Source: Dermacoccus nishinomiyaensis (lineage in GTDB: Bacteria > Actinomycetota > Actinomycetes > Actinomycetales > Dermatophilaceae). Taken from it: a stretch of 64,000 nt of DNA. The notes below the pieces were generated by a model. That model searched no databases. It saw only the letters and a list, made by a program, of their open reading frames with translations, and was not told the origin of the DNA. The DNA lies in contig NZ_UFXX01000001.1 in the NCBI RefSeq assembly GCF_900447535.1, forward strand, positions 372,001 to 436,000, in the 5' to 3' direction. The stretch's first letter is position 1. Each line of letters starts with the position of its first letter. Below are positions 42,231 through 53,839 of this stretch, piece after piece. A program made the translations under genes and the position numbers.

Positions 42231-43862
42231 ATGAGCGGCCCGAAGTTCGACCCGACGGACCGGACGTCGTCCTCGAACGACACGTCATCAGGCGCGACGT
42301 CGCCCGCCGACGTCCTGCGGCTGCGTTCGCAGTTGACGACGGTGTCGTCGCAGAACGAGCGTCTCGTGCGCACGCTCAAGGATGCGCGCGACCAGATCGC
42401 GTCGATGAAGGGTGAGATCGAACGTCTCGCGCAGCCGCCGAACAACTACGCCACCGTCATCGCGGCGCATGACGACGGCAGCGCCGACATCTTCTACATG
42501 GGCCGAAAGATGCTCGTGTCGTTCTCGCCCGCGATCACGATCGAGGAGCTCGTGCCCGGCCAGGAGGTCATGGTCAACGAGGCCATGAACATCGTCAGGG
42601 TCGTCGGGTTCGAGCGCGCCGGCGAGACCGTCACGCTCAAGGAGACGCTCGAGGACGGCCGCCTGCTCGTCGCGACGGGCAACGACGAGGAACGTGTCGT
42701 CCGTACCGCCGGGCCGCTCGCGGACGTGACGGTGCGTCCCGGCGACACGCTGCTCATGGAGGCCAAGAGCGGTTTCGTGCTCGAACGGCTGACGCGCGCG
42801 GAGGTCTCCGACCTCGGGCTCGAGGAGGTGCCCGACATCGACTACTCCGACATCGGGGGCCTCGCCGGGCAGATCGAGACGATCCGCGACTCCGTCGAGT
42901 TGCCGTTCCTGCACGCCGATCTGTACGCCGAGCACCACCTGCGTCCACCGAAGGGCGTGCTGCTCTATGGCCCGCCTGGGTGCGGAAAGACGTTGGTGGC
43001 CAAGGCGGTTGCCGCGTCGCTCGCGAAGCAGGTCGCGGCGAAGCAGGGCAACTCGGACGCGACGAGCTACTTCCTCAACATCAAGGGCCCGGAGCTGCTC
43101 AACAAGTACGTCGGCGAGACGGAGCGTCACATCCGCGTGCTGTTCCAGCGCGCGCGTGAGGTCGCGAGTTCGGGCACGCCCGTCGTCGTGTTCTTCGACG
43201 AGATGGAGTCACTGTTCCGCATCCGTGGCGCCGGCGTCAGCTCGGACGTCGAGACGACGATCGTGCCGCAGCTGCTCGCCGAGATCGACGGCGTCGAGAG
43301 CCTCGAGAACGTCATCGTCATCGGCGCGAGCAACCGCGAGGACATGATCGACCCGGCCGTCCTGCGCCCGGGGCGCCTCGACGTCAAGATCCGCATCGAA
43401 CGCCCCGACGAGGTCGCCGGGCGCGACATCTTCGGCAAGTATCTGACGCCGGCCCTGCCGTTCCACGCCGACGAGATCGCCGCGCACGACGGCGATCCGT
43501 CGAAGGTTGCGGCGTCGCTCATCGACATCGCTGCGGGGGAGTTGTATGCCCGCGACGACGCGCACGCCTACCTCGAGGCGACGTACGCGGACGGTTCGCG
43601 CGAGGTGCTGTACTTCGCCGACTTCGCGAGCGGCGCGATGATCCAGAACATCGTCGACCGCGCGAAGAAGGCCGCGATCAAGGCCCTTATCACTTCCGAG
43701 GAGCGCGGTATTCGCGCGGAGCACGTGCGTCAGGCGTGCCGTGACGAGTTCCGCGAGAACGAGGATCTGCCCGGCACGAGTAACCCCGACGACTGGGCCC
43801 GCGTGTCCGGCCGCCGCGGTGAGCGCATCGTCAACATCCGCACGCTCGCGGACAAGAACTGA
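42231..43862 (+). CDS. arc: ARC/Mpa-type proteasomal ATPase without a proteasome-docking tail
   Basis: A 543-residue AAA+ ring ATPase that unfolds pupylated proteins. A coiled-coil (about 28-68) is followed by tandem OB domains (75-210). The AAA module has GPPGCGKT near residue 247, VFFDEMES as Walker B, and [17 protein letters not shown]. The C-terminus is [12 protein letters not shown]. It lacks the penultimate-Tyr (HbYX, QYL) tail that opens the 20S proteasome in mycobacteria. ATG at 42231 has AAGGAAA upstream. It is the first gene of the pupylation block. Without docking it may act as a proteasome-independent unfoldase. Confidence 0.93.
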
Positions 43863-44480: not shown

Positions 44481-46493
44481 GTGCCCAGCCGTCACTCACC
44501 CGCCCACGCCGAGCCCTCGGCCCGCTCCGGTGCGGGCTCGTCGCGTCAGAGCCTGATCGCCGCCGTCTTGTGCATCGCCGGCACCGTCGTCGCGCTGCAG
44601 CAGACGCTCGTCATCCCGCTCATCCCCGAGTGGCCGACGCTGCTGCACACGAGCGCCGACAACACCTCATGGCTCGTCACCGCGACGCTGCTCGCGGGTG
44701 CCGTCGCGACGCCCATCCTGGCGCGCCTGGCGGACATGGTCGGCAAGAAGAAGATCATGCTCGTGTCGCTGGCTTTCGTCATCGTCGGCTCGGTCATCGG
44801 TGGTATCGGCTCGGGGCTCGGCGCGCTCGTCGTCGCGCGCACGTTCCAGGGCGTGGGCGCGTCGATGATCCCGATCGGCATCAGCATCCTGCGCGACGAG
44901 CTGCCACGCGAGAAGGTGGGCGGCGCCGTCGCGACGATGAGCGCGACCCTCGGCATCGGCTCCGCGATCGGGTTGCCGCTCGCCGGTTTCCTCGTCGAGC
45001 ACTTCTCCTGGCACATGGTGTTCTGGGTGTCGGTCGTCTCCGCGAGCCTCATGTTCGCGGCCGTCGCGCTCGTCGTGCCCGAATCGAAGGTCACCTCGCG
45101 CGGACGCTTCGACCTCGTCGGCGCCGTGCTGCTGTCGGCGGCGCTGCTGTGCCTGCTCGTGCCCATCACCAAGGGCGGGCAGTGGGGTTGGGGGAGCGAG
45201 CGCGTCCTGCTCCTGTTCGCCGCGAGCATCGCGCTGTTCGCCGTCTGGGCGCCGTACGAACTGCGTCACAACTCGCCGATGGTCGATCTGCGCACCTCGG
45301 CGCGACGCCCCGTGCTGCTGACGAACGCCGCGAGCCTGCTCGTCGGCTTCGCCATGTACGCCAACATGATGACGACGACCCAGCAGCTGCAGATGCCCGA
45401 GATCACCGGGTACGGCTTCGGCATGTCCGTCATCGCCGCGGGCGTCGCGATGCTGCCCGGTGGCCTCGCGATGGTCGTGCTGTCGCCCGCGAGCGCCGCC
45501 GTCACGAAGCGCTTCGGCGCCCGCACGACACTGCTCGCCGGCGCGCTCGGCCTTGCCGCGTCGTACACGCTGCGCGTCTTCCTCACCGGCGCGGTGTGGC
45601 AGGTCGTGCTCGGCGCCACGCTGTGCAGCGCCGCGACAGCGTTCGCGTACGCCGCGATGCCGACACTCATCATGCGGTCGGTGCCGCTGACAGAGACCGC
45701 GTCCGCGAACGGCCTCAACACGCTGCTGCGCTCGATCGGCACGTCGACGTCGTCCGCCGCCGTCGCGGCGATCCTGACGAACATGGCGATGCACGTCGAC
45801 GGGCACGACCTGCCGAAGCTCGCCGCGTTCAAGGCCGTCTTCGTCATGGCCGCCATCGCGGCGCTCGCCTCCGCCATCGTCGCTGCGTTCGTGCCGACGG
45901 CGCAGCCCGCGTCCGCAAGCGCGCCGAGCGCCACCCCCGCGACGCGCCCCGCCCCGGCGAGCGCCGACAAGGACGCCGTGCGTGGTGGCGACAGCCGCGA
46001 GATCGTCGCGACCGGAACGCTCGTCGGCCTCGACGGCCACCCCGTACGCCGCGGCGTCGTGACGGCGCTCGCCAGCGACGGCGCGCACCTCGACTGGGGG
46101 CGCGTCGACGACGACGGGTGCTACCGCCTCGCCCTGCCCGGCGCGGGACGCTACGTACTCGTCGCCTCCGCCGAGGGCTGGGCCACACGCTCGCGGATCG
46201 TCGAGGTCACGGGCCCCGGTCTGCCGCAGTTGAGCCTCGTCGACCCGCTGCAGCTCACGGGCGCCGTGCGGCGCAGCGACGGTTCACCGGCCGCGCAGGT
46301 GCCGGTGACGCTCATCAAGCACTCGGGCGAGTACCACGCGGACACGCTCACCGACGGCGAGGGCCGCTACGTCATGCCGCTGCCGCCGGGCGGGCGCTAC
46401 GTCGTCGCCGCTCTCGATGCCGAGCACGACGCGACAGCCGCGGCGAGCGTCACCGTGCTCACCGAACCGGTGAGCGCCGACATCACCCTCTGA
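44481..46493 (+). CDS. MFS (DHA2-like) transporter fused to carboxypeptidase-regulatory-like domains
   Basis: A 670-residue protein. Residues about 20-480 form a 14-helix major facilitator of the drug/proton antiporter type, with ARLADMVGKKKIMLVSL in the helix 2-3 loop and GVGASMIPIGISILRDELP near helix 4. After an Ala/Pro/Ser linker (480-510) come two beta-rich repeats: GTLVGLDGHPVRRGVVTAL to YRLALPGAGRYVLVASAEGW, then LTGAVRRSDGSPAAQVPVTL to YVMPLPPGGRYVV. These resemble carboxypeptidase regulatory (prealbumin-like) domains. The tail should be cytosolic. It interrupts the usual ARC-dop neighbourhood. Confidence 0.88.
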   Translation: MPSRHSPAHAEPSARSGAGSSRQSLIAAVLCIAGTVVALQQTLVIPLIPEWPTLLHTSADNTSWLVTATLLAGAVATPILARLADMVGKKKIMLVSLAFVIVGSVIGGIGSGLGALVVARTFQGVGASMIPIGISILRDELPREKVGGAVATMSATLGIGSAIGLPLAGFLVEHFSWHMVFWVSVVSASLMFAAVALVVPESKVTSRGRFDLVGAVLLSAALLCLLVPITKGGQWGWGSERVLLLFAASIALFAVWAPYELRHNSPMVDLRTSARRPVLLTNAASLLVGFAMYANMMTTTQQLQMPEITGYGFGMSVIAAGVAMLPGGLAMVVLSPASAAVTKRFGARTTLLAGALGLAASYTLRVFLTGAVWQVVLGATLCSAATAFAYAAMPTLIMRSVPLTETASANGLNTLLRSIGTSTSSAAVAAILTNMAMHVDGHDLPKLAAFKAVFVMAAIAALASAIVAAFVPTAQPASASAPSATPATRPAPASADKDAVRGGDSREIVATGTLVGLDGHPVRRGVVTALASDGAHLDWGRVDDDGCYRLALPGAGRYVLVASAEGWATRSRIVEVTGPGLPQLSLVDPLQLTGAVRRSDGSPAAQVPVTLIKHSGEYHADTLTDGEGRYVMPLPPGGRYVVAALDAEHDATAAASVTVLTEPVSADITL

Positions 46494-46563: not shown

Positions 46564-48081
46564 ATGACGGTTCAGCGCATCATGGGCATCGAGACCGAGT
46601 ACGGCGTGCTGCGCCCCGGCGATCAACGGACGACGCCGATGGTGCTGTCGGGCCTCGTCGTGCGCGCCTACGCGAACGACGTTGGCCTCAACGCGGCGCA
46701 GAGTCGGTGGGACTACAGCGACGAGTCGCCGTTGCGCGATCAGCGCGGCTACGACATCGCTCGCGAGGTCGCGCACGAGAGCCAGCTGACCGACGACATC
46801 GACCCGAGCTTCGCCAACGTCGTGCTCAAGAACGGTGCGCGCCTGTACGTCGACCACGCCCACCCCGAGTACAGCTCGCCGGAGGTGACGACGCCCCGCG
46901 ACGCCGTCGCGTACGACCGCGCGGGCGAGGTCATCATGCGGCGCACGGCGGCGTTGCTCGCCGACGACGAGGACGGCCCGACGCAGCTGTACAAGAACAA
47001 CACCGACGGTCAGGGCGCCTCGTACGGCACGCACGAGAACTACCTGCTGCGCCGCGACGTGCCGTGGGCGCGCGTCGTCGCGGGCATGACGCCGTTCTTC
47101 GTCGCGCGTCAGGTCGTCACCGGCAGCGGCCGCGTCGGCATCGGCACCGAGAGCGAGCGGGCCGGTTTCCAGCTCACTCAGCGCGCCGACTTCTTCGAGG
47201 CCGAGGTCGGTCTCGAGACGACGTTGAAGCGTCCCATCATCAACACGCGCGACGAGCCGCACGCCGACCACCGCAAGTATCGCCGCCTGCACGTCATCGT
47301 CGGCGACGCCAACCACGCCGACGTCGCGAACCTGCTCAAGATGGGCATGACGAGCCTCGTGCTCGGCGCTCTCGAGGACGAGGCCCTGCCGCGGATCGTC
47401 CTCGCGCGACCGGTCACGTCGATGCGCGCCGTCAGTCACGACCTGACGCTCGCCGAGCCGCTGGACCTCGTCGACGGCCGCGCGATGAGCGCGCTCGACA
47501 TCCTCGAGGCGTACCGCGATGCCACGCACACGTGGTGGCAGCGGCGCGGCGACGACCCGGTCGAGGAGCAGACGCGCGAGGTCTTCGAGCACTGGGGGCG
47601 CGTCCTCGACGGGCTGCGTCGCGACCCCATGAGCCTCGCGGCCGACCTCGACTGGGTGGCGAAGAAGAGCGTCATGGAGGCGTTCATGACACGCCATGAT
47701 GTCGGGTGGGACGACCCGCGTCTGCGCGCGCTCGACATCCAGTGGTCCGACGTGCGCGCCGACAAGGGCCTGTTCCACACGTTCGAACGCGCCGGTCGCT
47801 TCACCCGCGTCGTCAGTGACGAGGACGTCGCGCGCGCCGTCGTCGAGCCCCCGCGCGACACGCGAGCATGGCTGCGCGGCAAGAGCATCGAGGCGTTCGG
47901 CAGCGACGTCGCCTCCGCGTCGTGGGACGGGATGGTCTACCGCACCACGCTGCCGTCGAGCTACACGCGCATCCGCCTGCCCGAGCCACTCGCCGGCAGC
48001 GCCGAGCAGACCCGCGGTTGGTTCGACGCCGACGTCGCGCACCTCATCGCTCAGGTCGGGCCCGACCTCGTCGTGGAGTGA
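46564..48081 (+). CDS. dop: Depupylase/deamidase Dop
   Basis: A 505-residue glutamine-synthetase-like enzyme that removes Pup from substrates and, in other species, deamidates Pup-Gln. The ATP/metal-binding N-terminus is IMGIETEYGV, and the conserved NGARLYVDHAHPEYSSPE and KNNTDGQGASYGTHENYL blocks are present. [26 protein letters not shown] is typical. ATG at 46564 has TAGGGT (46552-46557) 6 nt upstream, a leaderless arrangement. Because Pup here ends in Glu, only the depupylase activity is needed. Pup follows 180 bp downstream. Confidence 0.96.
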   Translation: MTVQRIMGIETEYGVLRPGDQRTTPMVLSGLVVRAYANDVGLNAAQSRWDYSDESPLRDQRGYDIAREVAHESQLTDDIDPSFANVVLKNGARLYVDHAHPEYSSPEVTTPRDAVAYDRAGEVIMRRTAALLADDEDGPTQLYKNNTDGQGASYGTHENYLLRRDVPWARVVAGMTPFFVARQVVTGSGRVGIGTESERAGFQLTQRADFFEAEVGLETTLKRPIINTRDEPHADHRKYRRLHVIVGDANHADVANLLKMGMTSLVLGALEDEALPRIVLARPVTSMRAVSHDLTLAEPLDLVDGRAMSALDILEAYRDATHTWWQRRGDDPVEEQTREVFEHWGRVLDGLRRDPMSLAADLDWVAKKSVMEAFMTRHDVGWDDPRLRALDIQWSDVRADKGLFHTFERAGRFTRVVSDEDVARAVVEPPRDTRAWLRGKSIEAFGSDVASASWDGMVYRTTLPSSYTRIRLPEPLAGSAEQTRGWFDADVAHLIAQVGPDLVVE

Positions 48082-48261: not shown

Positions 48262-48453
48262 ATGAGCGGTCAGCAGTTCAAGAACGCCAGCGGCAAGGGC
48301 GACGACGAGTTCGAGGCAGGCGCAGACGCCGGCCAGGTGCAGGCGGCGTCGTCGACGAGCGACATCGACTCGATGCTCGACGAGATCGACGGCGTGCTCG
48401 AGACCAACGCGAGCGAGTTCGTCTCCGGGTTCGTGCAGAAGGGCGGCGAGTGA
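48262..48453 (+). CDS. pup: Ubiquitin-like protein Pup
   Basis: A 63-residue mostly disordered modifier that PafA attaches through its C-terminal Glu to lysines of target proteins. The C-terminal half is helical (DIDSMLDEIDGVLETNASEFV), and the last residues are FVQKGGE. The terminus is encoded as GGE rather than GGQ, so no deamidation is required. ATG at 48262 has GAGGAGC upstream, and TAGGGT about 40 bp upstream may be its -10. The next gene is pafA, where prcB would usually be. Confidence 0.96.
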   Translation: MSGQQFKNASGKGDDEFEAGADAGQVQAASSTSDIDSMLDEIDGVLETNASEFVSGFVQKGGE

Positions 48454-48578
48454 CGCCACGGGCTACGCGCCCGACGCAGGGTTGATGCGATAACGCGATA
48501 ACGCGACACCACCGCGAGCGGCCCAGACACCGCGTCCAGTCACGACCTCAGCAGTCAGTCAGACGATCAGGAGCAGCC

Positions 48579-49952
48579 ATGGAACGCCGCATCTACGGCA
48601 TCGAGACGGAGTTCGGCGTCACCGCGACGACGAACGGCCAGCGTCGCCTGACGCCCGACGAGGTGAGCCGCGCGTTGTTCCGCAAGGTCGTCGCGTGGGG
48701 GCGTTCGAGCAACGTCTTCCTCGACAACGGTTCGCGCCTCTACCTCGACGTCGGCGCGCACCCCGAGTACGCGACGGCCGAGTGCGACTCGCTGCTTGAT
48801 CTCGTCGCCCAGGATCGCGCCGGCGAGCGCATCCTCGACGACATGACGAGCGACGCCCAGGCGCGCCTGGCGGAGGACGGCGTCGACGGCACGATCTACG
48901 TCTTCAAGAACAACACCGACTCGGCGGGCAACTCCTACGGCTGCCACGAGAACTTCCTGCTCGATCGCGGCGCCGACATGAACCGCATCGCGGAGATCTT
49001 CGTCGCGTTCCTCGTCTCCCGCCAGCTCGTCGCGGGCGCCGGCAAGCTGCTCGTGCGCGACGGGCGCACCGTGTTCAACCTGACGCAGCGCGCCGAGCAC
49101 ATCTGGGACGGCTACTCGAGCGCGACGACGCGCTCACGCCCCATCATCAACAGCCGCGACGAACCGCACGCCGACTCGGCGCGCTACCGTCGCCTGCACG
49201 TCATCGTCGGCGACTCGACGATGAGCGAGGCGACGACGCTGCTCAAGGTCGGCTCCGCCCACCTCGTGCTGCGCATGATCGAGGCGGGGGAGAGCTTCCC
49301 GCGCCTGCACCTCGCCAACCAGATCCAGGCGATCCGCGACGTCTCCGCCGACCCCACCGGCCAGTGCGTCATCGAGCTGCAGGGCGGCACGAGCATGACG
49401 GCCCTCGCGATGCAGCACATGTTCCTCGAGCGCGCGACGGCGTTCGTCGAGCGCGAGGGCGACCCCGACCCGGCGATCGCGGACGTCCTCGACCTGTGGG
49501 GGCGCACCCTCGAGGCGGTCGAATCGCAGAACTTCACCGGCATCGAGACCGAGATCGAATGGGTCATCAAGCGCAAGCTGCTCACCGACTACGCGGCGCG
49601 TCAGGGCCTCGAGTTGGACGACCCGAAGCTCGCCCAACTCGACCTCACGTTCCACGACATCCGCGCCGGACGCGGCGTGTTCGGCCTGCTCGAGAAGGCT
49701 GGACGCGTGCGACGCATCGTCGACGACGCCCGCGTCACCGAGGCCATGACGACGCCGCCACAAACAACACGCGCGAAGCTGCGCGGCGATTTCGTCAGGG
49801 CCGCGCGTGAGGCGGGGCGTGACTTCACCGTCGACTGGGTGCACCTCAAGCTCAACGACCAAGCCGGCCGCACGCTCATGTGCAAGGATCCGTTCCTCGC
49901 CACCGATGCCCGCGTCGATCGTCTCGTCGAGAGCCTGACGACGCCCGTCTGA
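48579..49952 (+). CDS. pafA: Pup--protein ligase PafA
   Basis: A 457-residue carboxylate-amine ligase that activates Pup Glu as a phosphate with ATP and joins it to lysine. It is a paralogue of Dop. Recognisable parts are [12 protein letters not shown] at the N-terminus, [37 protein letters not shown] and [29 protein letters not shown] at 48579 has an AGGAGC site upstream. The pup-pafA gap is 125 bp and contains only a short GCGATAAC direct repeat, no prcB or prcA. Confidence 0.96.
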
Positions 49953-50056
49953 GACGCCTGCGGGCTCGGACGCACAGGCCCTTGCCAGGCAAAGCACACC
50001 CCACGCGGGTTATCGTGGCGGACGACCTGTCACCCATCGCGCGAGGATCCTCTGCT

Positions 50057-51106
50057 GTGACTTCCCCCAAGCGTCTGCTTGCCCTGGCCGCTCTGCCCAT
50101 CGTCTTCCTGGCCGGATGCGGCAACGACGACTCGAAGGCCTCCAAGAGCTCGAGCGGCTCCTCCGGCGCCAGCGCGTCGTCGAACGCATCGTCACCGTCG
50201 TCGTCGAGCGGGCTGTCCGCACCCGCGACGAAGGGCAACCTCGACGACGTCAAGGTCGACACGAAGGACGCTGCGAAGCCCACCGTCTCGATCCCGAAGG
50301 ACAAGCTGCCGTTCGGCACGAGCAGCACGAAGCCGAAGATCCTGACGCAGGGTTCCGGCAAGACGGTCGGCGACAACGACATCGTCAAGGCCAACTTCGT
50401 CATGGTGAACGGCACGACCGGCAAGACGATCGGTTCGACGTTCGGTGAGACCGTGCCCAGCTTCAACATGAGCGACAACAACAACCTGCCGGGCATCATC
50501 AGCACCCTGAAGGGCCAGAAGGCCGGGACGAAACTCGTCGTCTCCCTGCCGCCGAAGGACAGCTTCGGTGCCGCGGGCAACGAGAAGATCGGTGTCGGCG
50601 CGAACGACAACCTCGTGCTCTACATGGAGATCAAGGCCACCGACACGCCGCTCAAGGAGGCCCAGGGCACGACCAAGGACGCGCCCGCCGACATGCCGAA
50701 GGTCAGCGTCCCCGCCGGCCAGGGCAAGCAGGCGAGCATCACCGTCGCCAAGGGCGCGAAGGCCCCGACGAGCCTCAAGACGGCCACCCTCATCGAGGGC
50801 AACGGCAAGAAGGTCGCCTCCGGCGACTCGGTCGCCGTCAGCTACACCGGCCAGATCTGGGGCACGTCGACGATCTTCGACGCCACCGCGAAGCACAACG
50901 ACGGTGGCAAGCCGTCGGTGTTCGTCATCGGCAAGGGCCAGGTCATCACCGGCTGGGACAAGGCGCTCGTCGGCCAGAAGGTCGGCAGCCGCGTGCTCGT
51001 CGTGGTGCCGCCGTCCGAGGGCTATGGCAAGGACGGCAACCAGCAGGCGGGCATCAAGGGCACCGACACCCTCGTGTTCGTCGTCGACATCCTCGCCGCC
51101 AACTGA
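50057..51106 (+). CDS. Lipoprotein with two FKBP-type peptidyl-prolyl isomerase domains
   Basis: A 349-residue exported protein. A signal peptide with lipobox LAGC at residues 18-21 should anchor it on the outer face of the membrane. A Ser-rich linker (25-60) follows, then two FKBP folds (about 85-200 and 240-349). The second is the better conserved (VAVSYTGQIWGTSTIFDA, GWDKALVGQKVGSRVLVVVPPSEGYG, TLVFVVDIL). GTG at 50057 gives the right signal peptide. A role in folding of exported proteins is inferred. It precedes a cytosolic FKBP gene by 41 bp. Confidence 0.9.
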   Translation: MTSPKRLLALAALPIVFLAGCGNDDSKASKSSSGSSGASASSNASSPSSSSGLSAPATKGNLDDVKVDTKDAAKPTVSIPKDKLPFGTSSTKPKILTQGSGKTVGDNDIVKANFVMVNGTTGKTIGSTFGETVPSFNMSDNNNLPGIISTLKGQKAGTKLVVSLPPKDSFGAAGNEKIGVGANDNLVLYMEIKATDTPLKEAQGTTKDAPADMPKVSVPAGQGKQASITVAKGAKAPTSLKTATLIEGNGKKVASGDSVAVSYTGQIWGTSTIFDATAKHNDGGKPSVFVIGKGQVITGWDKALVGQKVGSRVLVVVPPSEGYGKDGNQQAGIKGTDTLVFVVDILAAN

Positions 51107-51147: not shown

Positions 51148-51567
51148 ATGGGTTTCGACCCCAAGACGACCAAGCCCGAGATCGACTTCCCCGGTGACAC
51201 CCCGCCGGCGGAACTCGTCGTCGAGGACATCACCGTTGGTGACGGCGCCACCGTCGAGGCCGGCGACATCATCAAGGCGCACTACGTCGGCGTCTCCTGG
51301 TCGACCGGCGAGGAGTTCGACGCCTCGTGGAACCGCGGCGAGCCGCTGGAGTTCACCGCCGGCGTCGGCCAGGTCATCCAGGGCTGGGACGAGGGCCTGC
51401 TCGGCATGAAGGTCGGCGGCCGCCGCAAGATCATCATCCCGCCGGCGCTCGGCTACGGCGAGCGCGGCGCGGGTGCCTCGATCGGCCCGAACGAGACGCT
51501 GATCTTCGTCGTCGACCTCGTTTCGACGAACAAGCCCGGCGCTGGACGCTCCTTCGGCCTCCGCTGA
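51148..51567 (+). CDS. FKBP-type peptidyl-prolyl cis-trans isomerase
   Basis: A 139-residue single-domain cytosolic FKBP. The active-site ring is visible in AHYVGVSW, EEFDASW, GVGQVIQGWDEGLLGMKVGG and IIIPPALGYGERGAG, ending IFVVDLV. It accelerates proline isomerisation in protein folding. It has no signal peptide, unlike the preceding lipoprotein. ATG at 51148 is preceded by GAAGGAG. A strong terminator follows the stop by 54 bp. Confidence 0.93.
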   Translation: MGFDPKTTKPEIDFPGDTPPAELVVEDITVGDGATVEAGDIIKAHYVGVSWSTGEEFDASWNRGEPLEFTAGVGQVIQGWDEGLLGMKVGGRRKIIIPPALGYGERGAGASIGPNETLIFVVDLVSTNKPGAGRSFGLR

Positions 51568-51773: not shown

Positions 51774-52766
51774 GTGGCAGCACGACCCACCCCGGAGGCG
51801 AAGACCGAGCGCCTGCTCAACCTCGTCATCGCGCTGCTCTACACGCGCAGGCCGCTGACGAAGGACGCCATCCGTCAGGCCGTGCGCCCGTACACCGAGG
51901 CACCGAACGACGAAGCCTTCGACCGGATGTTCGAGCGGGACAAGGACGAGTTGCGTGAGCTCGGCATCCCGCTGCGCGCCGAACCCATCGACATCCTGTT
52001 CGAGGACGAGATCGGCTACCGCATCGACAAGCGTGAGTACGAGCTGCCCGACCTGCACTTCGACGCCGACGAACTCGCTGTCCTCGGCCTCGCCTCGCGT
52101 GCGTGGCAGCAGGCCAGCCTCGCCGGCCCTGCGGCGGCGGCGATGCGCAAGCTCGAGGCGCTCGACATCAGCCCCGACGTCGAATCGGTCGTCGGCCTCG
52201 AACCTCGTATCCGCACCAGCGAACCCGCCTTCGACGCCGTCAAGGACGCGGTGATGACGCGGCGCGCCATCACGTTCACCTACCGCGCGGCCGGGCGGGA
52301 GAGCGCTGTGCGTCACGTTCAGCCGTGGACGGTGACGAACCGTCGGGGTCATTGGTACGTCGCCGGGTTCGACACCGACCGTGACGCGCCGCGCGTCTTC
52401 CGTCTCTCGCGAATCGAGGGCCCGGTGCGACTCGTCGGCAAGCCGGGCGCCTACGAGGTGCCGGACGATCACGACACGAGCGCCCTCATCGAACGTACCG
52501 AACGCACCCCCGACTGGGCGCCTGCCGTCCTGCGGGTGCGCGCGGGGCGAGGACACTCGCTCGTGCGGCGCGCCCGCACCGTCGGCGTCATCGACGAGAC
52601 GTGGCAGCTCATCGACATCGAGTACGCCGACCCCGGCGTGCTCGCCGACGAAGTCGTCTCCTTCGGCGCCGACGTGCTCGTGGAGAAGCCCGACGAGCTG
52701 CGCGAACGTGTCATGGCGCGCCTGCGGGGCGCCTATGAAGCCCAGACGGCGGAGACTGCACCATGA
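51774..52766 (+). CDS. pafB: WYL domain transcriptional regulator PafB
   Basis: A 330-residue protein: an N-terminal winged helix (about 1-75, ERLLNLVIALLYTRRPLTKDAIR), a WYL domain (about 145-230 with WTVTNRRGHWYVAGFD), and a WCX C-terminal region. In mycobacteria PafB and PafC form the PafBC complex that activates the LexA-independent DNA-damage response. GTG at 51774 has GAAGGAG upstream and TAGGCT some 48 bp upstream. The stop overlaps pafC by 4 bp (ATGA). Linkage to pafA follows the canonical actinobacterial cluster. Confidence 0.93.
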   Translation: MAARPTPEAKTERLLNLVIALLYTRRPLTKDAIRQAVRPYTEAPNDEAFDRMFERDKDELRELGIPLRAEPIDILFEDEIGYRIDKREYELPDLHFDADELAVLGLASRAWQQASLAGPAAAAMRKLEALDISPDVESVVGLEPRIRTSEPAFDAVKDAVMTRRAITFTYRAAGRESAVRHVQPWTVTNRRGHWYVAGFDTDRDAPRVFRLSRIEGPVRLVGKPGAYEVPDDHDTSALIERTERTPDWAPAVLRVRAGRGHSLVRRARTVGVIDETWQLIDIEYADPGVLADEVVSFGADVLVEKPDELRERVMARLRGAYEAQTAETAP

Positions 52767-53839
52767 ACGCCCGCACTGACAAGGCCGCCCGCTCTGGGGC
52801 GATCGACTCTGGGTCCGCCGACACGGGGTCCATCAGCTCGGGGTCGATCAACTCGGGGCCGATCAACTCCGAAGCGGCGACGACGCGCCTGTCACGGCTG
52901 CTCACGATGGTGCCGTGGCTGATGAACCGTCAGGGCATCGACATCGAGGAGGCGGCCCGCACCCTCGGCGTCAGCCGCGCGCAGATCGAGGCCGACCTCG
53001 AGCTGCTCTTCGTCTGCGGCACACCCGGCCACATGCCCGACGACCTCATCGAGGCCGAGTGGGAGCAGGGGCGTGTCTACATCCGCAACGCCGACGCCAT
53101 CGCCAAACCGCTGCGCTTCACCCGCGACGAGGCGCTCGCCCTCACCGTCGGGCTGCGCACGCTGCTCGACGTGCCCGGGCTGCAGGAGCGCGACGCCGTC
53201 GATCGCGCCCTCGCCAAGCTGAGCGAGGCGACGGGGGAGAGCGGCGCCGCACGCGTCCACGTCAGCCTCGAACGCGATGGTGAGCAGGTGCTCAGCACGC
53301 TGCAGGACGCGGTGCGCCGCGCACATCGGGTGCACCTGCGCTACCTTGCGCCGGCCCGGGACGAGGTGACGGAGCGTGACGTCGACCCGCTGCGCCTGTT
53401 CACCTCCGACGGCCACTGGTACCTCGAAGGGTGGTGCCGTCGCGCCGAGGGCATGCGCACGTTCCGTCTCGACCGCATCGAGAGCGTCGAGCTCCTCGAT
53501 GTCCGGGCCGAGATCCCGCAGGACGCGCAGCGCACCGACCTCTCGCGCGGCTTCTTCGCCCCCAGCCCCGACGCGCCGCAGGTGCGTCTGCGGGTGCAGC
53601 GGGCCGCGTTCTGGATCATCGACTACTACCCGTGCTTCGACGTCGAACGATCCGACGACGGCGAGCACGCAGACGTCTCACTCGTCCTCGGCGACGGGCG
53701 CTGGTTGCGCCGGTTGCTGCTGCAGCTCGGCCGGGACGCCCAGGTGCTCGCGCCTGCCGCGGTGCGGGCGCAGGTCGCCGACGAGGCCCGCCGCGCCCTC
53801 GACGCCTACGCCGAGATGCTCGGGGGCACCGTGCCGTGA
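52763..53839 (+). CDS. pafC: WYL domain transcriptional regulator PafC
   Basis: A 358-residue paralogue and partner of PafB. The first 40 residues are a low-complexity repeat of SG-S-I-N-type pentapeptides (about residues 11-36) absent from most homologues. The winged helix (about 43-95, LLTMVPWLMNRQGIDIEEAARTLGVSR) and WYL domain (about 180-255 with WYLEGWCRRAEGMRTFRLDRI) follow. ATG at 52763 overlaps the pafB stop, and the stop overlaps the next GTG. The two PafB/C genes are thus translated together, matching their action as a heterodimer in the DNA-damage response. Confidence 0.93.
   Translation: MNARTDKAARSGAIDSGSADTGSISSGSINSGPINSEAATTRLSRLLTMVPWLMNRQGIDIEEAARTLGVSRAQIEADLELLFVCGTPGHMPDDLIEAEWEQGRVYIRNADAIAKPLRFTRDEALALTVGLRTLLDVPGLQERDAVDRALAKLSEATGESGAARVHVSLERDGEQVLSTLQDAVRRAHRVHLRYLAPARDEVTERDVDPLRLFTSDGHWYLEGWCRRAEGMRTFRLDRIESVELLDVRAEIPQDAQRTDLSRGFFAPSPDAPQVRLRVQRAAFWIIDYYPCFDVERSDDGEHADVSLVLGDGRWLRRLLLQLGRDAQVLAPAAVRAQVADEARRALDAYAEMLGGTVP

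Follow-up and report, generated by a model that had tools for sequence, protein, structure and literature searches.

Pupylation genes without a 20S proteasome in Dermacoccus nishinomiyaensis, one of several apparent prcBA losses within its family

Background

The role of a ubiquitin-like protein tag in bacteria that have no proteasome is an open question in the field, and the pupylation locus of Dermacoccus nishinomiyaensis poses it directly: what might Pup be kept for where the genes of the 20S core are missing? Some actinobacteria, for example corynebacteria, are described as carrying pupylation genes without proteasome genes, with pup directly before pafA; in proteasome-less actinobacteria the ATPase is retained without its docking motif, and a degradation-independent role has been inferred (PMC3511204). 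A subgroup with secondary proteasome loss is also described, with C. glutamicum and M. luteus named as members, and in the model presented for C. glutamicum, pupylated ferritin would be unfolded by ARC, opening the cage, with the subunit then recycled by Dop (PMC8223512). Answers, as the 2012 review put it, may come from species in which the proteasomal genes were lost (PMC3511204).

The window analysed here is the whole stretch of 64 kb that contains the locus, and it belongs to a genome (G000) of 3,098,047 bases in 2 contigs that is 100% complete. An initial annotation of the window had read the locus as pupylation without 20S degradation. By examining the complete genome, the other species sampled in its genus (G009, genus g1) and 119 genomes drawn from the family, we ask whether the proteasome is really absent, how often it has been lost, and whether the remaining system is maintained.

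Results

Layout of the pup locus

The genes of the locus lie on the plus strand in the order ARC, MFS transporter, Dop, Pup, PafA, two FKBP-type isomerases, PafB and PafC (Table 1). In an HMM search ARC, Dop, Pup and PafA all scored above their NCBIfam equivalog cut-offs; neither PafB nor PafC had an NCBIfam match in that search, and their identities come from Pfam domains. All six had been listed in the initial annotation, and the matches to TIGR03689, TIGR03688, TIGR03687 and TIGR03686, together with the Pfam domains, confirm them. The 125-bp gap that it had placed between pup and pafA is likewise exact, as the pup stop codon ends at 48453 and the pafA ATG stands at 48579.

Table 1. Features of the pup locus, in coordinates of the window
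Feature	Position	Strand	Evidence and remarks
ARC, Mpa-type AAA+ proteasomal ATPase	42231..43862	+	TIGR03689, 775.5 bits; no GQYL docking tail; start ATG 42231
MFS (DHA2-like) transporter with C-terminal CarboxypepD_reg-like domain	44481..46493	+	PF07690, PF13620
Dop, depupylase/deamidase	46564..48081	+	TIGR03688, 635.2 bits
Pup, 63 aa	48262..48453	+	TIGR03687, 68.8 bits; GGE end, the ligation-ready form
pup-pafA spacer, 125 bp	48454..48578	no strand	site of prcB and prcA in proteasome-bearing relatives
PafA, Pup-protein ligase	48579..49952	+	TIGR03686, 680.3 bits
FKBP-type prolyl isomerase, lipoprotein-like	50048..51106	+	PF00254; pafA/pafB interval
FKBP-type prolyl isomerase, second	51148..51567	+	PF00254
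PafB, WYL-domain regulator	51774..52766	+	PF13280 (WYL), PF25583 (WCX)
PafC, WYL-domain regulator	52763..53839	+	PF19187 (HTH_PafC), PF13280 (WYL), WCX

The MFS transporter has no known part in pupylation. Homologues of this MFS-CarboxypepD_reg-like fusion, which in the window lies between ARC and dop, occur at the pup loci of relatives (L009, L013, L016, L018, L022, L023, L024, L040 and L046), both with and without prcBA and including the sister genus.

Absence of the 20S proteasome

A search with PF00227 gave 0 matches and 0 first-look candidates in the complete G000 genome and 0 matches in G009, and was positive in 97 of the 119 family genomes. With PrcB and PrcA of a relative (G010) as queries, tblastn found no match in the 64-kb window at E<=10, which upholds the earlier statements that the pup-pafA gap codes for neither subunit and that no prcBA lies anywhere in the window. 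Two checks that had been proposed were carried out: the genome-wide search for prcA and prcB, named as the refutation test, was negative, and a synteny comparison showed that the relatives carry prcBA in the pup-pafA interval. The general rule invoked, that prcB and prcA follow pup in proteasome-bearing actinobacteria, held at 24/24 proteasome-bearing loci, in all of which the PrcB match begins -48 to +33 bp from the pup coding end; pafA lies 1.5 to 8.7 kb downstream in the 19 of these 24 where it falls inside the stretch. Because prcB starts at the end of pup in every one of these loci, we read the 125-bp spacer as a deletion state, prcBA having been lost.

Repeated prcBA loss in the family

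PF00227 was missing from 22 of the 119 family genomes. Three of these (G028, G029 and G094), which are 58-82% complete, have Bpa and lack a Pup ligase, were set aside as assembly gaps. In two others, G008 and G057 of genus g9, both 99% complete, PF00227, full-length ARC and PF03136 are all absent, and the whole Pup system seems to have been lost in that genus. The other 17 are pup-only genomes.

We mapped these states on a quick IQ-TREE phylogeny of RpoB plus RpoC with SH-aLRT support, comprising 40 family genomes and 4 outgroups, in which RpoC is represented by only 142-162 residues in the outgroups and by 592 in G089. The starred branches of this tree force at least 7 changes of prcBA, in the lineages g1 (the window genus), g35, g37, g49, g45, part of g13, and g47 with g9. 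Since the position of prcBA is identical in 24/24 proteasome-bearing loci, these changes are best read as at least 7 losses, the alternative being regain by transfer into the same site. The sister of the window genus, G024 (SH-aLRT 98), has prcBA, an ARC ending in GQYL, and Bpa. Genus g13 is itself split, with prcBA kept in G013 (L025) and G109 and lost in G060 (L015) and G089 (L019).

In 12 of the 17 pup-only genomes, G000 included, pup and pafA are <130 bp apart; in the other five (four of genus g35, plus G049) 1.4-4.9 kb of other DNA extends from pup to pafA. Weak PrcA tblastn matches in this interval in the four g35 genomes (E 0.036-1.5) were considered as prcBA remnants and rejected, the frames between pup and pafA in G035 and G072 (L010, L016) being identified by Pfam as a DAC-domain protein and not as proteasome subunits. 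This gene at the prcBA site has DACNG, DACNH and DAC (DisA-type) domains, and similar frames are present in G098 and G115. The frame in the 1.4-kb interval of G049 had no Pfam match at E<=1.

Among 246 genomes drawn from the whole class, each with a completeness of 95% or more, the Pup ligase family was found in 207 and PF00227 in 198; 10 of the 246 have the ligase family without PF00227, and 5 of those 10 belong to the family of the window.

The ARC docking tail and Bpa

The C-termini of ARC in G000 and G009 are about two dozen residues shorter than the GQYL end of relatives, and the penultimate tyrosine of the tail is gone in 15/17 pup-only genomes. Both exceptions belong to g13: in G060 ARC ends in GEYV, with the penultimate tyrosine retained, and in G089 the frame breaks near its end (in the gene or in the assembly), GDYL being reached in another frame. 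Among proteasome-bearing genomes the tail was read in 84 of 97; it ends in -YL in 80 and not in 4, namely G013 (GDVL) and G014, G061 and G090 of genus g14. By count the link between prc and the tail appears strong, but it is not significant by a conservative test, as among seven independent pairs the two are concordant in 5-6 and discordant in 1 (sign test p 0.125-0.219). Nor do these genomes appear to fix the order of tail loss and prcBA loss, because in G013 and g14 the tail was lost and prcBA kept, and in G060 and G089 prcBA was lost with the tail near-intact.

In genus g14, the genomes G014 (L034), G061 (L198) and G090 (L202) have PF00227, and their ARC, which ends in VIPPVR or in GARGR, lacks a docking tail; none has a match to Bpa (PF10759). 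In G014, a PrcB with an HGTTI stretch and PrcA adjoin pup. Genus g14 may therefore possess a proteasome without a known docking partner.

Bpa is said to occur in every actinobacterium having a 20S proteasome (PMC8223512), and both Bpa and Cpa are described as co-occurring with prcAB (PMC4254994, PMC6017811). PF10759 had no match in G000 and was absent from all 19 prc-less genomes kept after the three were set aside; it was found in 80 of the 97 proteasome-bearing family genomes. In independent pairs Bpa and prc were concordant in 4-5, discordant in 0 and without difference in 2-3. An ARC that has lost its tail and a genome without Bpa are consistent with uncoupling of the system from the 20S core and, together with the lack of PF00227, support the initial reading of pupylation without 20S degradation. 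The 17 proteasome-bearing genomes in which PF10759 was not found contrast with the general occurrence described in PMC8223512, although two of them, G031 and G090, are only 75% complete.

Selection and conserved motifs

Between G000 and G009, dN/dS is 0.18 for ARC, 0.26 for Dop and 0.20 for PafA. Across seven pup-only pairs the values for these three enzymes range from 0.06 to 0.37, compared with 0.12-0.18 in a single proteasome-bearing control pair, and the enzymes are under purifying selection. The value for Pup between G000 and G009 is 0.64, in a short gene with dS 0.25, and is weak evidence of constraint.

The motifs inspected are almost invariant in the pup-only genomes: in ARC, the pore loop KYVGE and the Arg-finger RPGRLD in 17/17 and Walker A as GPPGCGKT in 16/17 and GPPGNGKT in 1/17; and the Asp-bearing VDHAHPEY of Dop, LYLDVG of PafA and QKGG of Pup each in 17/17. 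At the locus in the window ARC also retains Walker B and sensor motifs, and Dop and PafA the ETE and catalytic-Asp motifs. Relative to RpoBC, distances are somewhat larger for pup-only genomes, at 2.50 for ARC, 3.12 for Dop and 2.85 for PafA, against 2.14, 2.73 and 2.59 for proteasome-bearing genomes; the clade of g13, g41 and g14 is fast-evolving with or without prcBA. Taken together, the Pup system appears to be maintained, possibly with some relaxation.

Ferritin

The search for ferritin/Dps proteins with PF00210 gave 0 matches in G000 and was positive in 14/14 control genomes; of what a ferritin-release system comprises, G000 has the unfoldase motifs of ARC and, as far as the PF00210 family goes, no encoded ferritin substrate. 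PF00210 was absent in 12 of the 43 genomes searched: G000, G035, G079, G098 and G118 (5/17 pup-only genomes, from three of the seven lineages that lost prcBA), G057, and six proteasome-bearing genomes (G013, G001, G022, G032, G038 and G052). The other 12/17 pup-only genomes, G009 included, have a PF00210 protein. Presence of ferritin in G009 (PF00210, 4.7e-33) and none in G000 is a difference inside genus g1.

In the pairs G079-G118 and G035-G098, all of whose members lack PF00210, dN/dS of ARC, Dop, Pup and PafA is 0.10-0.37, and because these pairs keep such low values, ferritin release appears not to be needed to keep the Pup system in this family, cages outside PF00210 aside. A comparison of seven independent pairs also showed no association of ferritin presence with prc loss.

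Discussion

Proteasome-free pupylation is itself already known, and the locus in the window is a further case of it: Pup, PafA, Dop and ARC score above their cut-offs, the core subunits PrcA and PrcB of the canonical Pup-proteasome system are not found, pup stands directly before pafA, ARC has no C-terminal 20S-docking motif, and Bpa is absent. The order ARC, dop, pup, pafA, pafBC is that of Mycobacterium and of most of the family, the sister G024 included, but unlike the Pup-proteasome systems of Mycobacterium and G024, that of G000 has neither prcB nor prcA, no GQYL on ARC and no Bpa. The likeness to Micrococcus luteus, a Pup locus without prcBA, is one of description (PMC8223512) rather than of sequence. 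The parallel with corynebacteria drawn in the initial annotation holds as to kind (PMC3511204, PMC8223512), since pup, pafA, dop and ARC are retained, prcBA is gone, pup adjoins pafA and the ARC docking motif is absent, as described for C. glutamicum (PMC3511204). It should not be extended to the ferritin function, because G000, unlike C. glutamicum, has no PF00210 ferritin/Dps protein. G000 also belongs to a different family from C. glutamicum, one in which the losses occurred separately.

We hypothesize that the locus is probably a Pup system that has undergone secondary loss of prcBA together with loss of the ARC tail and Bpa, and in which the tag serves as a signal for reversible disassembly or inactivation. 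On this hypothesis prcB and prcA would have been deleted, with the 20S-docking tail of ARC and Bpa lost afterwards or alongside. PafA, judging by the activity of its family, would attach Pup, made directly in its GGE form, to lysines of the target; the disordered end of Pup would then be pulled into the ARC ring, whose motifs are kept, and the target would be unfolded or extracted from an assembly. As the 20S core that could receive it is absent, the target would not be degraded, and removal of Pup by Dop would allow it to refold or reassemble. Because Pup already ends in GGE, Dop should not be required for deamidation, and its retention therefore points to depupylation, an argument also made in PMC3511204. 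ARC would accordingly act as a stand-alone unfoldase, with ferritin an unlikely target here. Against this explanation we count the Pup dN/dS of 0.64, the faster ARC (2.50 versus 2.14), which relaxation could also give, and genus g9, which has dispensed with the whole system and shows it to be dispensable in at least one neighbour.

The same observations could suggest a decaying relic, its remaining parts kept by chance after the proteasome was lost and now on their way out: g9, which lacks the entire system, stands on the branch of g47, ARC is somewhat faster among pup-only genomes, and Pup has a dN/dS of 0.64 in the G000-G009 pair. Such decay is unlikely, however, given that ARC, Dop and PafA show dN/dS of 0.06-0.37 in the seven pup-only pairs against 0.12-0.18 in the proteasome-bearing pair, that the inspected active-site motifs are retained, and that the enzymes have been lost in 0/13 genomes of the six other sampled lineages. 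Another objection, that prcBA lies in an unassembled or overly divergent part of the genome, would produce identical PF00227 misses; it is largely refuted by the complete two-contig assembly, by the agreement of G009, by the concurrent disappearance of Bpa and the ARC docking tail, and by the narrowing of the usual prcBA site to 125 bp, and we give it almost no weight.

Two further explanations grant the system a function and differ from ours in what that function is. In a ferritin-release system like that of C. glutamicum, Pup would tag ferritin and ARC would dismantle the cage, freeing iron; this is the one worked-out function for a proteasome-free Pup system (PMC8223512), and most pup-only genomes do have a PF00210 protein, that of G009 being a ferritin by Pfam. 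It is nevertheless improbable as the reason for retention in the species of the window, as G000, G035, G098, G079 and G118 have no protein of PF00210 (the family to which the search was limited), pairs whose members both lack it keep low dN/dS, and ferritin does not follow prc loss. Alternatively, ARC might pass pupylated proteins through a new contact to another peptidase such as ClpP, so that the tag would still be degradative. New ARC tails are conserved inside some genera, for example GGKDLKVD in 3/4 g35 genomes, but they vary between lineages and share no common replacement motif, and we regard such a hand-over as very improbable. A reversible signal for disassembly or inactivation is the reading we carry forward.

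To what was known of proteasome-free pupylation the present analysis adds at least seven losses in one family, counts of the ARC tails, and pup-only genomes without PF00210; a literature search that covered few subscription journals found no report of repeated prcBA losses inside one family, nor of pup-only genomes without ferritin. Within the family, at least seven natural losses can thus be set against sister genera that have the proteasome, and there are also pup-only genomes that lack PF00210 ferritin, the only worked-out proteasome-free target. We tentatively suggest that proteasome-free pupylation may be a repeated and stable end state in this family, in which Pup could mark a target other than ferritin for reversible unfolding or disassembly without degradation, and would then have a second, so far undescribed job.
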